Below, one piece after another: positions 9,748-64,000 of a stretch of DNA of 64,000 bases (positions within the stretch are counted from its first letter, which is position 1; every line of letters starts with the position of its first letter). The translations under genes and the position numbers were made by a program. The stretch covers positions 1 to 64,000 of the forward strand of contig JAFDZV010000003.1 of NCBI GenBank assembly GCA_018266795.1, read 5' to 3'. This DNA comes from Bacteroidota bacterium. GTDB lineage: Bacteria > Bacteroidota > Ignavibacteria > OLB7. The notes below the pieces were generated by a model, which made no database searches, had not been told where the DNA came from, and saw only the letters and a program-made list of their open reading frames with translations.

Positions 9748-10734
9748 TCATTCAACGATGCGTCCCATGTAGAGATCCAGATCGCCGAAGCTCTGCATGT
9801 CCGCGCGCTTCGAAGCGAAGTAGATCAGGTCGCCAACCGTTGTTGCCGCAACTGAGCGTTCGTCTGCACTGGTGTTGAACGGTGCTCCCAGATTGACGGC
9901 CGCTCCCCACGTTCCGTCCGTCTGGAGCCACGACACGTAGATATCGAATCCACCATGGCCGCCCGCCCGGTCCGATACGAACAGGAGAGCCTTGCCGTTC
10001 ATCGTTATGCACGGGCTTTCGTTGTGAATGCCGCCGTTCACCGTTTCCGGCAGCCGCCTCGGCGAGCTCCAACCCCCATCGCTCTGCATCGTGCTGGCGT
10101 AGATGTAGCTGTGCTCCTCCCGGTCCTTCCCGGTTGGGCGGTTGGAGACGAAGTAGAGAATCCGGCCGTCTGCGGAGAGTGCTGGCTGGCTTTCGGAGTA
10201 TTTGGTATTGATGCGCTTGAGAGGATGCACCCCGGATGCGCCCGCGTCCTCCAGCCTTCCTTCGAAGATGTCGCAGTCGCCGGCGCCATCCGCCCTGTTG
10301 CAGGCAGAGAAGTATACGGCCTTCCCATCATGTCCCACCGCGATTCCGTTCTCGTTCCCGGTGCCGTTCAGCGGCGTTGCCATGCACTGGGCGGGGGTGA
10401 AGACCGTATCGAAGCGCGTCCACTTGCTCGTTATCCAGAAGTCATTCCCTCCCGGTCCGCCGGTCCGGTTGCTGACGAAGTAGAGCGTGAGGCCGCCCGG
10501 GCCAAGCGATGGCGCGTACTCCATGGCATGCGAGTTGACAAGCGCTCCGAGGTTGGTGACCTCGCACCGCTTCGTGCTGTCGAACGGCCATGCCCCGAGA
10601 ACACCACGCCCCGTGGGCGCCGGCGCCTTGGATGCAACGGATGTGGATGACGTAGTGGAAGGCGTGCTGCATCCGGACACCGCGATTACGATGCCGATCA
10701 GGATGGCGCGGGCGGAAAACGATCGTTGGACCAT
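9748..10734 (-). CDS. PD40 beta-propeller lipoprotein
   Basis: A 328-aa lipoprotein. The lipobox is VSGC near residues 16-20 after the helix ILIGIVIAV. The body contains PD40/WD40-like propeller strands, seen as repeats of 'LYFVSNRTGG', 'AVYFSACNRADG', 'ILYFVSNRPTG', 'ALLFVSDRAGGHGGFDIYVS' and 'LIYFASKRADM'. These are typical of Bacteroidota lipoproteins related to the N-terminal part of OmpA/Pal-linked PD40 proteins, often T9SS- or envelope-associated. The start at 10734 (ATG) is used since it begins the lipoprotein signal; the open frame extends 93 codons further upstream without protein-like sequence. It converges on the giant surface gene with only 40 bp between. The exact function is unknown. 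Confidence 0.82.
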   Translation of the reverse strand: MVQRSFSARAILIGIVIAVSGCSTPSTTSSTSVASKAPAPTGRGVLGAWPFDSTKRCEVTNLGALVNSHAMEYAPSLGPGGLTLYFVSNRTGGPGGNDFWITSKWTRFDTVFTPAQCMATPLNGTGNENGIAVGHDGKAVYFSACNRADGAGDCDIFEGRLEDAGASGVHPLKRINTKYSESQPALSADGRILYFVSNRPTGKDREEHSYIYASTMQSDGGWSSPRRLPETVNGGIHNESPCITMNGKALLFVSDRAGGHGGFDIYVSWLQTDGTWGAAVNLGAPFNTSADERSVAATTVGDLIYFASKRADMQSFGDLDLYMGRIVE

Positions 10735-10879: not shown

Positions 10880-12538
10880 CTATACCTGCAACACCCCGGT
10901 GCTGAACTTCGGCACCTCGTGGTTGTGACTGGCCATGGCCAGCCCTCGGGATACGATGCGGCGCGTGTCGCGCGGGTCGATGATGCCGTCAACCCAGAGC
11001 CGCGCCGCCGCATACACCGGATTGGTCTGCGAATCGTATCGGTCCTGAATCTCCTTCAGCATCTCAGCCTGCTTCTCCGGGGTGATCGTCTGGCCCTGCT
11101 TCTCCAGCTGTGCGAGCTTGATTGTCAACAGCGTCTTCGATGCCTGAGCTCCCCCCATCACCGCGATGTTGGCGCTGGGCCAGGCATAGATCAGCCGGGG
11201 ATCGTACGCCTTGCCGCACATAGCATAGTTCCCCGCGCCGTAGCTGTTGCCAACGATGAAGGTGAACTTCGGAACCGTGCTGTTGCTGACGGCGTTCACC
11301 ATCTTCGCGCCATCCTTGATGATGCCTCCCTGTTCGGCGCGCGTGCCGACCATGAATCCGGTGACATCCTGGAGGAACACGAGGGGGATGTGGCGCTGAT
11401 TGCAGTTCATGATGAAGCGGGCCGCCTTGTCCGCACTGTCGGAGTAGATAACGCCTCCCACCTGCATTTCCCCCTTGGCCGTGCGGACGATGTTGCGGTT
11501 GTTGGCAACGATCCCCACGGCCCATCCATCCATGCGCCCGTAACCGCAGACGATCGTGCGGCCGTACTCCGCCTTGTACTCCTCGAACTCGGAGCCGTCC
11601 AGCAGGCGTGCAAGCAACTGATAGGTATCGTAGGGGCGCGTGCGGTCGTGAGCCAGAATGCCGAACAGCTCATCCGGAGCGAACGCCGGCTCCGCCGGTG
11701 TTACGCGGTCGAAGAGCTTGCGCGCGCCGAGCTCCGGTCCGAAGCGTGCAACGAGCGAGCGGATGATCGCGATCGCCTCCTGATCGTTGGCGGCCTTGTA
11801 ATCCGTGTTCCCGCTGATGGAACAGTGCATGGTTGCGCCCCCCAGCGATTCGATGTCCGTACGTTCACCGATCGCGGCCTCAACCAGTGCAGGCCCGGCA
11901 AGGAACAGGCTTCCGTTTCCTTCAACGATGATCGCCTCATCCGACATGATCGGCAGGTAGGCGCCGCCCGCAACGCAGGGACCCATGATGCAGGCGATCT
12001 GCGGAATGCCCATGCTGGACATGATGGCGTTGTTCCGGAACTGCCTGCCGAAGTGTTCCTTGTCCGGAAAGATCTCATCCTGCATCGGGAGGAAGACTCC
12101 GGCGGAGTCCACAAGGTAGATCGTCGGGAGCCTGTTCTCGATGGCGATCTCCTGTGCGCGCATGTTCTTCTTGGCCGTGAGCGGGAACCATGCTCCGGCC
12201 TTCACCGTGGCGTCGTTGGCAACGATCATGCACTCACGCCCCTCGATCACCCCGACGCCTGCAACAACGCCGGCCGACGGTGCGCCCCCCTGTTCCTCGT
12301 AAAACCCGCTGGCGGTAAGCAGGCCTATCTCCATGAACCAGGTGCCGGGATCGATCAACAGGTCGATCCGTTCGCGAGCCGAGAGCTTTCCCCGTTCATG
12401 CAGGCGCTCGCGTGCCTTGGCGCCGCCTCCCGCACGCGTGCGTTCCGCAACGGATTCCATGGAGCGGAGCAGCTCGTTGTTGGTTTCGTAGTTCTTCTGA
12501 TAGGCAGGTGTTTCCTGCACGTCGTTGCCGATGAACAT
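10880..12538 (-). CDS. Acyl-CoA carboxylase carboxyltransferase (beta) subunit
   Basis: A 552-aa biotin-dependent carboxyltransferase. Both crotonase-like halves are visible: N-half with GKLSARERIDLLIDPGTWF, ARE..VVAND.TVKAGAWFP, GPCVAGGAYLPIMSDE; C-half with FLQDVTGFMVG, GNSYGAGNYAMCGKAYDPRL and WPSANIAVMGGAQAS. The 'MCGKAYDPRLIYAWP' stretch is most like methylcrotonyl-/geranyl-CoA carboxylase beta subunits, but propionyl-CoA and other acyl-CoA carboxylases cannot be excluded. The reaction moves carboxyl from carboxybiotin to an acyl-CoA in the cytoplasm. The ATG at 12538 (MFIGNDV) matches family length; no Shine-Dalgarno is visible. No biotin carboxylase or biotin carrier gene is adjacent, so its alpha partner must be elsewhere. 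Confidence 0.93.
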   Translation of the reverse strand: MFIGNDVQETPAYQKNYETNNELLRSMESVAERTRAGGGAKARERLHERGKLSARERIDLLIDPGTWFMEIGLLTASGFYEEQGGAPSAGVVAGVGVIEGRECMIVANDATVKAGAWFPLTAKKNMRAQEIAIENRLPTIYLVDSAGVFLPMQDEIFPDKEHFGRQFRNNAIMSSMGIPQIACIMGPCVAGGAYLPIMSDEAIIVEGNGSLFLAGPALVEAAIGERTDIESLGGATMHCSISGNTDYKAANDQEAIAIIRSLVARFGPELGARKLFDRVTPAEPAFAPDELFGILAHDRTRPYDTYQLLARLLDGSEFEEYKAEYGRTIVCGYGRMDGWAVGIVANNRNIVRTAKGEMQVGGVIYSDSADKAARFIMNCNQRHIPLVFLQDVTGFMVGTRAEQGGIIKDGAKMVNAVSNSTVPKFTFIVGNSYGAGNYAMCGKAYDPRLIYAWPSANIAVMGGAQASKTLLTIKLAQLEKQGQTITPEKQAEMLKEIQDRYDSQTNPVYAAARLWVDGIIDPRDTRRIVSRGLAMASHNHEVPKFSTGVLQV

Positions 12539-51733: not shown

Positions 51734-51825
51734 TCTGTCCGTTAGAGGTGCTCCGGCAGCGTCGGGGCTGAGATCATACTCTGGAACCTGATCCGGGTAA
51801 TGCCGGCGGAGGAAATACGGACAGA
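51734..51825 (+). promoter_or_regulatory. TPP riboswitch (thi-box)
   Basis: The conserved core is plain: GGGGCTGAGAT at 51764-51774, then 'ACCTGATCCGGGTAATGCC' at 51786-51804 followed by GGCGGAGG, which bind the pyrimidine and pyrophosphate of TPP. P1 is a 9-bp closing stem, TCTGTCCGT (51734-51742) with ACGGACAGA (51817-51825). It lies 210 bp upstream of thiO and leads the whole thi operon, so high TPP should lower thiO-thiE expression. Confidence 0.95.
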
Positions 51826-51950
51826 TGAAGATTCAGCCATCCTCACCTGTCCCTCCATAACGATGCCGGCGCGGCATCCGGCCGGAACTGTCTGATAGCT
51901 GTTTATGAGCGGATCGCGAGCGATCCGGCCCAAACAAGATCGGCAGACAG
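51819..51950 (+). promoter_or_regulatory. Putative riboswitch expression platform
   Basis: GGACAG, the 3' arm of P1 (51819-51824), can pair instead with CTGTCC at 51847-51852. Downstream lie GATGCC-GGCGC-GGCATC (51862-51878) and a nested structure, CTGTCTG (51888-51894) with CAGACAG (51944-51950), that encloses GGATCG-CGAG-CGATCC (51911-51926). No strong U-tract follows, so whether the switch acts by termination or by hiding the start is unclear. Confidence 0.5.
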
Positions 51951-60600: not shown

Positions 60601-60706
60601 CATCACGAAGCATGCCTTGGTAACTGATCGTTTGTGGAATCTGCGCCAGTGCGGGAATGGCCATGATGGCCGACAACAGCACCGACAGTACGAGCGTACG
60701 TTTCAT
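57671..60706 (-). CDS. 1011-aa Asn/Gly-rich repeat surface protein
   Basis: An exported protein; the signal 'RTLVLSVLLSAIMAIPALAQ' follows the ATG at 60706, with AAGGAGA 12 bp upstream. Residues about 20-140 form a head like those of Bacteroidota tail-fibre-like proteins (QTISYQGMLRDASGGLVNGT, TFRIYDAPGATTPLWEE). A middle zone repeats 'ITSSIKDSAVTTPKLGEGSV' and 'ITRTIADAAVTPAKINVNG'. About 330-950 are built from 20-30 residue units such as 'NAANANNALEASTNGTGRAGYF' and 'GVRGETNSQDANASAIIGVV', likely forming a beta-helix. The C-terminus (960-1011) ends 'LFVSTVSGANWIPVQP'. There is no T9SS domain, so export beyond the periplasm is unclear. A fibre or S-layer-like role is inference. Confidence 0.8.
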   Translation of the reverse strand: MKRTLVLSVLLSAIMAIPALAQIPQTISYQGMLRDASGGLVNGTHTLTFRIYDAPGATTPLWEEVHSNTAVSGGIFNVILGGSKSAPRPLTLAFNKKYYLGVVIDVGGTELPTRVEFTSSPYALNAQSIIDNGVITSSIKDSAVTTPKLGEGSVTGTKIANGTVVRSINGLHDDLFLKAGQNITITPSGDTMTIASTASANSKISRISVGPGLTGGGDSGTININVGTESIINTMLGYHSVTESKIEDNSIITRTIADAAVTPAKINVNGASVGMAISYFGGGAPVWGYPWASQLVVPFAQTAATSACMVAFTQTGTGQVMCLTTSNAANSSNSLEVTTNGTGNAIRAWRSASTGIAAGVRGETNSQDANASAIIGVVTSTTPGGFSAALRGTNNGTGGLGIGVVGTQAGSGWGVYGTTPSGIGVYGLSTSGFGVYGQSTSGVSVYGIQPSNGTSSAGYFQNTNTANSSPALFGTTNGTGPAVSGAQGGTADAGLFSISNAANTAHAVNASTNGSGNGVNAVNTGTGRGGLFSIVNAANANNALEASTNGTGRAGYFNSTNAAGTADAVNVVTAGTGRAIGGTRRGGSGITLGQTEAIRGDNTDGPGVAGTSNTAVGLYGTSVTTHGVWGVGVVANAAGVEGRNDVVNGFGVEGVSLGGGIGVHGTSQTGNASQFDVTNAASTADAVRATQNGLGRGVYAIINNTSNIVGAVRGETNGGGYGVFGQATGNGNAGFFQISNPASTSSTMNVTTNGIGSGVTIQLTNASNGARGVDVLQAGVGPGVFATSAGGNAVWGITSSISAAGVIGDNTFGEAVVGRNRGGNGVGAVVGRNDSSGYGCRGFNTKDGIGVLGQAGISGGTGVGGRFENVNAANGNDALQAATNGTGWAANFTNANNSSASRGLRIATTAGQGGNALTIANGTVAMSYQHPYASNTVVDDAILVVTTAGNVTIPTGPPLVDGATVWVVNNAGAVITLTNTTAGAFNINPGRACQMLFVSTVSGANWIPVQP

Positions 60707-62101
60707 TGTGCCAGACTCTCCTTGGTGATTGGATGTTGTTTGCATACGGTCAATCATCTATTCACAATCATGTGTTTCAAGCCAACCTCGTCTGCTCGCA
60801 GACCAGCCGGGCGCCCGTGAGGGCCGCCGCTGCGGGCAATGTGCTCATATCGCAATGCGAGCCTGCCGCGTTGACATATCGGCAACGGCATTGTGGAATC
60901 GAGTTCAGCAAGAGGGAACAAACAGATGGGGTCGTGAACGCCTGAAGGAGTGCGCAACCCCAGAATGCCAGTGTAGAATTCCGAAAACGACAACGCAGCA
61001 AGAGAATACGGGATACCCCCGGCATCGCGTTCTGCCCGGGTGCTACGTTCTATCTTCATGGTCGTGCCTTGAGAGGGTGCACGACGTTCTGCATGGTTTC
61101 GTTTCACCAGGCCGGGACCAATGATCCCGCGCAGACGACCACGGTGATGGCCTCTCCGCGCATTGACTACACTGCTAGTGTCTGGGGACGGCAATATGCA
61201 AGATTTCCGCGAAATACACCGGCTTACCTGTCGATATTTCGCGACAAAATGTACAATGGATTATGCAGCGCTGACAGCTTCTGAGGAGCTTCGGATGACC
61301 CAAATCGCCGGTGATTGTTCAAAGGGACACGGCGCGATTCTACAACCGGGCTGCATTCAATGCAATAGCAAACGACGCGTGCCTCCGTCGGCGTAAACCA
61401 TTAGGGCGATGCTCTGGGCGATCATTGGGTGCGTCTTCGAGGGAGCTGCATCAGCGTTCAGCTACTGAAACGTGAGGGCGTGGAGAAAAGTTTGCCGCAC
61501 GATCGCCTCCGCAAATCGGCGGGATCGGAGAAGTATCGGTGCGCAGCGGCTCCGGCCAGGCCGCCATTGATTATGCGGATATATCGCATTGGGCCGCGTG
61601 CTCCCTGATTCCCGCATCGAAGCCTGGAGACGAGACGTACTCCCGGGCGCCAGATCCGCGACGCAGTGCGGACCGGCTCGCGATGGCTGGAGCATGGCAG
61701 CGCCGGCCTGCTGCGGCCCGTGCGAAGCCGGGGGTCTGTATCGCAGTGCGACCTGTGAACCCACGCCTCCCGGCCGGCGCTATCGGACGAGGGGGCCCCG
61801 GCCGCTCGTGGCGGCGGTCCGGACGGCCGGAGATCTCGAGCACACGTTCATGCTGCCTGATGTGTTGCGTTCGGAGGATGATCGCAGTGTAATGATTCGA
61901 TCACACCGGATATCGGCGCTGCGTACGCGGTGTCTGCTGCGCTGCATCTTGCGAGCATCGGGCCATGCTCTCAATGCGTCGATCCGGCGGACGGCACTCG
62001 AAGGATGGGGCGACGCCCGGTGCGCCTCCGGTTCAGCCAGTTGTCCGCGTTCCGCGAAAAAAAAATTCATCCAAAAAAAATCATCGCATGCAAATTTTCT
62101 C

Positions 62102-62131
62102 TTGACATCGGCTTGGCCGGCGGCGTACATT
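62102..62131 (+). promoter_or_regulatory. Strong sigma70-like promoter with upstream A-tracts
   Basis: TTGACA (62102-62107) and TACATT (62126-62131) are 18 bp apart. Two A-tracts, A9 at 62057-62065 and A8 at 62073-62080, lie upstream like an UP element; they stand out in this GC-rich sequence. Transcription would start near 62138. Confidence 0.65.
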
Positions 62132-62180
62132 TGCCGCCCATTTTCAACCGCACATTGCGTGCGGCAAAAACACGAGCGGA

Positions 62181-62294
62181 ATGACAAAGCAAACGGCAAC
62201 ATATATCGTGACCAATCTGCTCCGGCCACACGGTTCGGGAGTAAGGAGTGTCGTGCCTGCAGATGCGAGCGGTGGGTTGCCGGTATCGCCATGA
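62181..62294 (+). CDS. Possible 37-aa peptide inside the ncRNA unit
   Basis: The ATG at 62181 opens a 37-codon frame (MTKQTATYIVTNLL..., ending GGLPVSP) within the promoter-terminator unit. GAGCGGA just before the ATG is a weak ribosome-binding site. It has no signal or motif. The nested helices overlap it, so a non-coding role is at least as likely. Confidence 0.2.
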   Translation: MTKQTATYIVTNLLRPHGSGVRSVVPADASGGLPVSP

Positions 62295-62319
62295 ATATAG
62301 ATCATGGATGAACCTTTTC

Positions 62320-62355
62320 AACCCGCCCTCGCGCATCGTGACGGCGGGTTTTTTG
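62320..62355 (+). terminator. Rho-independent terminator of the predicted ncRNA
   Basis: AACCCGCC (62320-62327) pairs with GGCGGGTT (62343-62350), and the stem runs into a T-run of six (62349-62354). This is the most canonical terminator in the window. Confidence 0.9.
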
Positions 62356-62667
62356 TTGCCATCACATGCGTTCGAATTGTTCACGTGCCGGTATGATCCG
62401 GTTTGCCTGGAGGTGCTGTTCATATGATCCACAGCCGATTCGATAGCCGCTTGTTCGATACGAACGGGAGGGTAAGCGGTCCGGTTTCAACCATGAATGA
62501 TGCGGATGTCCGCTTGCGGTCGCCGTTCCGAAGCTGTGGCGGCACGGCTTGCGAATCGAGCCGCGTTGCCGGTAATGCAGCCGATGGCCGGCTGCATGCT
62601 CATCCGGAGGCACTTCATGGTTGATTCCACCGCCGCAGATACGGGCCTCTTCCTCTGACCTGAAAAT

Positions 62668-64000
<1,333 letters not shown>

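Follow-up and report, generated by a model that had tools for sequence, protein, structure and literature searches.

Two described systems are close to what is seen here. The rsr-yrlBA-rtcBA RNA-repair operon of Salmonella is controlled by RtcR together with damaged tRNAs, and it responds to cut tRNAs (PMC7790460). Attenuators of the trp/his type, such as the E. coli trp leader, combine a promoter, a short leader ORF and three mutually exclusive helices (protector, antiterminator and terminator). The locus described here lies at the right end of the window, the whole stretch of 64,000 nucleotides that was analysed, and resembles both. Like the Salmonella operon it brings together a Ro60 protein, partly tRNA-like Y RNAs and an RtcB ligase; unlike that operon, with its RtcR control, it has a proposed leader attenuator, a Ro60 too diverged to be matched by the Pfam TROVE model, and an additional family of 66-residue proteins. 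Its putative leader has the same parts as the trp/his attenuators and, by fold prediction, the OFF/ON/OFF logic of the E. coli trp leader, but the genes downstream are of the RNA-repair type rather than for amino-acid synthesis, and the predicted leader peptide lacks a run of any single codon. We found no report of leader attenuation at Ro60 or RtcB loci in the open PMC literature.

The Ro60, Y RNA and RtcB cluster

The cluster begins within the window and continues beyond its end at position 64000:

62424 to 62624, plus strand: ORF of 66 codons, a diverged homologue of a 66-residue protein family found upstream of ro60
62899 to 64341 (running past the window end), plus strand: divergent Ro60 gene, as identified by its modelled fold
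64631 to 64728 (beyond the window end): Y-like RNA 1, between ro60 and rtcB
64784 to 64924 (beyond the window end): Y-like RNA 2, between ro60 and rtcB, with a circularly permuted tRNA-like module
65192 to 66622 (beyond the window end): RtcB gene (Pfam E 5e-82)
66669 to 66743 (beyond the window end): Y-like RNA 3, 3' of rtcB

Sequence profiles say little about the ro60 product: its first 367 residues match nothing in Pfam or NCBIfam at E 1e-3, and the full-length protein gives only weak matches to vWA models, with vWA_Ro60 weakly matched in 3 of 28 relatives. An AlphaFold model built with 28 relatives has a pLDDT of 88.5 (an earlier single-sequence model was poor and was excluded) and matches Ro60/Rsr structures above all else (2nvo, Foldseek E 1.9e-12; 9nep, Z 23.6 over 440 residues). 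The match, to a fold of TROVE HEAT repeats plus a vWA domain, extends over nearly the whole protein, and it is this model that identifies the gene as a divergent Ro60. Relatives at about 60% identity are found in cyanobacteria, Armatimonadetes, Myxococcota, Acidobacteriota and other groups, and close relatives also in Chloroflexota and in phage contigs. Three viral contigs (L118, L119 and L120) encode a divergent Ro60; in L119 and L120 a gene like that for the 66-residue protein directly precedes it, and about 70 nt before that gene there is a terminator-like hairpin.

The 66-codon ORF is strongly diverged (best match among the loci, E 1.9e-5), and it aligns with the copy in a congener, G001, at equal length and without gaps (27% identical, E 1.5e-5). 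Of 82 loci, 72 have a member of this family near ro60 (for example L063:1931-2128), and most of the members end in RPEAVYG. They match no family in Pfam or NCBIfam, and a search of 395 genomes of the phylum, run without a positive control, recovered none at E 1e-5. Between the 66-codon ORF and ro60, at 62651 to 62790, there are repeated AATTCCGG-type arms (fold z -2.35) that are perhaps another structured RNA; elsewhere in the window a TPP riboswitch is present at 51734 to 51832 (Rfam RF00059, 60.3 bits).

RNAs of about 115 to 150 nt flank ro60 in these loci. They share a stem core, and their tRNA-like modules are either in normal order or circularly permuted. An alignment of 21 of the permuted ones has two-sided changes in 21 of 29 pairs. 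In cyanobacteria such RNAs form arrays upstream of ro60 (L039:6342-7650, L061:7549-7860, L009:7163-7280), and some of the arrayed RNAs have a normal-order module, its anticodon varying, that is called as a tRNA by ARAGORN and Rfam; in others the module is permuted. Two Y-like RNAs (L009:5877-6060 and L048:5883-6061) carry an insert resembling CCCTAAGGTAGYRAWATTC, which we take to be a conserved stretch of 23S rRNA, as if they mimicked rRNA rather than tRNA. Beside the Nostoc Y RNA array, at L009:5243-5348, a short tmRNA-like sequence matches the Rfam model at its two ends (13 bits, E 0.007).

A putative leader and its predicted switch

Directly upstream of the 66-codon ORF the following elements can be recognized:

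62057 to 62065 and 62073 to 62080, plus strand: two A-tracts 5' of the promoter, seen in the sequence
62102 to 62133, plus strand: promoter TTGACA-N18-TACATT(TG), with the -35 element at 62102 to 62107 and the -10 element at 62126 to 62133
62119 to 62138, plus strand: dyad GGCGGC-8 nt-GCCGCC over the -10 element, a candidate operator
62139 to 62356, plus strand: predicted leader transcript, its start placed from the promoter and its end from the terminator
62181 to 62294, plus strand: 37-codon leader ORF, MTKQTATYIVTNLLRPHGSGVRSVVPADASGGLPVSP, with the geometry of the ORFs in six other leaders
62195 to 62281, plus strand: protector rod, closed by the helix GGCAAC/GUUGCC, which would sequester the antiterminator strand
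62265 to 62279, plus strand: antiterminator 5' strand, GCGAGCGGUGGGUUG, within the final ten codons of the 37-codon ORF and identical with the 3' strand of the rod
62319 to 62332, plus strand: antiterminator 3' strand, doubling as 5' arm and loop of the terminator
62320 to 62354, plus strand: intrinsic terminator, stem 62320 to 62350 and then T6

The sequence-only reading had proposed a near-consensus promoter with two A-tracts upstream and a U-tract terminator, and both stand up to closer analysis. The promoter also fits the Bacteroidota-type pattern TTG-N21-TACATTTG perfectly, and it is the single perfect instance of TTG-N17-23-TANNTTTG in 60701 to 62960 (2.26 kb), where 0.02 would be expected. 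The terminator is of the strong intrinsic type, its hairpin having 13 pairs and a predicted energy of -21 kcal/mol. The plus strand from the leader promoter to ro60 contains no second near-consensus promoter and no second terminator. The dyad over the -10 element is the only one of its GGCGGC/GCCGCC type, with a spacer of 4 to 12, in the whole window, and it may be an operator.

In order, the layout is promoter, 5' UTR of 41 nt, 37-codon frame, 24 nt from its stop to the terminator, 68 nt, and the gene for the 66-residue protein, with the terminator 540 nt ahead of the ro60 start. The earlier description of this region as one with no protein gene is right only in part, since the 66-codon ORF, which is related to a conserved small protein, begins shortly past the terminator and the 37-codon frame fits a leader ORF. 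The codon usage of that frame resembles non-coding sequence rather than genes, and no clear Shine-Dalgarno sequence precedes it. An apparent paralogue of the 37-residue peptide, at G000:C9, was dismissed as an antisense chance match, and the seemingly large number of codons sampled by leader ORFs, apparent when they are compared with genes, does not reach significance when dinucleotide shuffles serve as the reference (Stouffer 1.2).

The 5' half of the terminator, CAACCCGCCCUCGC, is complementary to GCGAGCGGUGGGUUG over 14 bp with one bulge, a match with p 0.004 against shuffled leaders in a set of tests selected post hoc, the sequence having already been inspected; equally good complementarity of this kind occurs in 0.7% of window pieces. 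Folding with the ribosome modelled as a 29-nt mask predicts a three-state switch. Without a ribosome the probability of the terminator is 0.78 to 0.94, the lower value applying to RNA cut at the terminator's last U; with a ribosome stalled at codons 3 to 24 it falls to about 0 and the antiterminator reaches at least 0.98; and with the ribosome anywhere from codon 27 to the stop the terminator is predicted at 0.95 or more. This off/on/off pattern arose in 0 of 150 shuffled leaders, and a stalled state equally low in the terminator in 1 of 150.

Sequence analysis shows the parts, the way they complement each other, the predicted switch and the return of the layout at other loci. We consider it somewhat probable that this RNA forms the leader of an operon whose first genes are those for the 66-residue protein and Ro60, and that it acts by ribosome-mediated transcription attenuation. 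Transcription would begin near 62139. In an untranslated leader the rod would hold the strand at 62265 to 62279 and the terminator would form; a ribosome reaching the end of the 37-codon ORF would cover the same strand, the terminator would again form, and the operon would be off. A ribosome stalled within roughly the initial two thirds of the ORF would break the rod and free the strand to pair with the 5' half of the terminator, so that RNA polymerase would continue over the 540 nt to ro60, through the gene for the 66-residue protein, and on through the rest of the cluster, Y RNAs and rtcB included. What the switch would sense is slowed translation, caused for example by cut tRNAs or damaged ribosomes; we infer impaired translation as the signal from the attenuator logic and from the response of the Salmonella operon to cut tRNAs (PMC7790460).

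Recurrence of the arrangement

Of 14 non-cyanobacterial loci, 6 have a strong terminator no more than 240 nt upstream of the gene for the 66-residue protein. The corresponding counts are 18 of 840 for random positions (2%), 1 of 14 for ro60 starts and 0 of 57 for the other loci, most of which are cyanobacterial. Each of the six has a short frame whose stop is 22 to 41 nt ahead of the terminator. Six leaders other than the one described here share its geometry, with a 5' UTR of 26 to 43 nt (120 nt in L083, where it holds a Y RNA), an ORF of at least 28 codons and the same stop-to-terminator spacing (combined p 1e-4), and the order of promoter, short frame, terminator and 66-residue protein gene recurs in other phyla, at L063, L074, L083, L085 and L086.

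The ro60 locus of the congener G001 has two leaders. The first consists of a promoter of the same type and spacer, a 44-codon frame and a terminator; the second, which is related to it, has a 47-codon frame and ends 59 nt before the gene for the 66-residue protein. These two related RNAs (L007, minus strand, 10443-10560 and 10961-11075) were found nowhere else in the eight genomes searched. Homology between them and the RNA described here was considered and rejected, model R3 retrieving G001 alone.

Significant antiterminator pairing is seen elsewhere in L074 (p 0.003), and weaker pairing in the first G001 leader (p 0.045) and in L085 (p 0.08); it is absent in L083 and L086, and in L063 the best complement falls within the promoter. 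In all seven other leaders tested for an equilibrium switch the terminator wins at every ribosome position, and therefore it is the architecture that is shared, while the predicted switch is limited to the leader described here.

Alternative readings and significance

The sequence-only reading had taken this RNA for a standalone structured RNA. Part of that description holds, in that the predicted product is a short terminated transcript outside the known RNA families. Rfam covariance models give no match at gathering score, permissive matches being noise, in agreement with the earlier statement that no signature of 6S, tmRNA, SRP or RNase P RNA is evident. An identity as 6S finds no support: the fold has no long rod closed by its two ends, and RF00013 matches nothing anywhere in the genome, so that a diverged 6S may have escaped the model. 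The nested helices reported earlier are present in the minimum-energy fold, which is made up of three separate hairpins and a rod, but their stability is ordinary once the terminator is removed: the z-score of -1.2 does not stand out from those of 185-nt pieces drawn at random from the window (mean -0.2, sd 1.3).

If the RNA were free-standing it could be a lineage-specific small RNA, perhaps a Ro60 partner that lacks the canonical Y core. It has its own promoter and strong terminator, its default fold terminates, and it occupies a position where other loci have Y RNAs. We searched it for the Ro-binding stem core, scored as GCGCCC..AC..AAGCUUACAYAC with AACUUGCGC; the RNA scores -4.5, at the level of shuffled sequences (mean -4.7), far below the 28.8 and 41.4 of two Y RNAs of the locus, and the Y-RNA model R2 gives only noise, which led us to reject a Y RNA identity. 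Y-like RNA 2 matches YrlA (RF02553, E 9e-6, under the gathering score), and the RNA described here, without the Y core, does not. No credible homologue was recovered by BLAST among 40 relatives, by a covariance model built from the single sequence and run on 294 genomes from the class and on 81 ro60 loci, or in plasmids and phages; the sole class-wide match of that model (G075, E 8e-5) is antisense within a cysteine-desulfurase-like frame. A free-standing RNA would also leave unexplained the antiterminator complementarity, with its mutually exclusive helices, and the recurrence in other phyla of a short ORF and terminator before the gene for the 66-residue protein. We regard it as less likely than an attenuator leader, and unlikely in itself.

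Less probable again is direct sensing of a ligand, protein or RNA by the attenuator, with the 37-codon frame incidental. The terminator/antiterminator pair would fit such a device, the frame does not have the codon usage of a gene, and the dyad over the -10 element suggests an added layer of regulation, but the ORF shares its geometry with six other leaders and Rfam gives no riboswitch or T-box match, for which reason those identities were rejected. It is very improbable that promoter-like and terminator-like sequences surround decayed, functionless non-coding DNA by chance: the RNA is not conserved, its fold is ordinary without the terminator and the adjacent 66-codon ORF looks degenerate, but such a promoter is expected only 0.02 times, the switch appears in none of the shuffled leaders and a like arrangement exists in the congener and in other phyla.

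Attenuation by a translating ribosome remains the reading we prefer for this leader. Its extension to the family is more tentative: a system of divergent Ro60, Y RNAs and 66-residue protein, present in several phyla and perhaps in phages, may be governed by leader-peptide attenuators that sense impaired translation, such that ribosome stalling turns RNA repair on. The same search uncovered a branch of Ro60 proteins missed by Pfam, whose loci, in cyanobacteria and other phyla, also encode a conserved 66-residue partner and arrayed Y RNAs that mimic tRNA. If translation itself is what the attenuator reads, damage to tRNA or ribosomes would be linked directly and testably to the induction of RNA repair, and the cell could couple RNA repair to failing translation.
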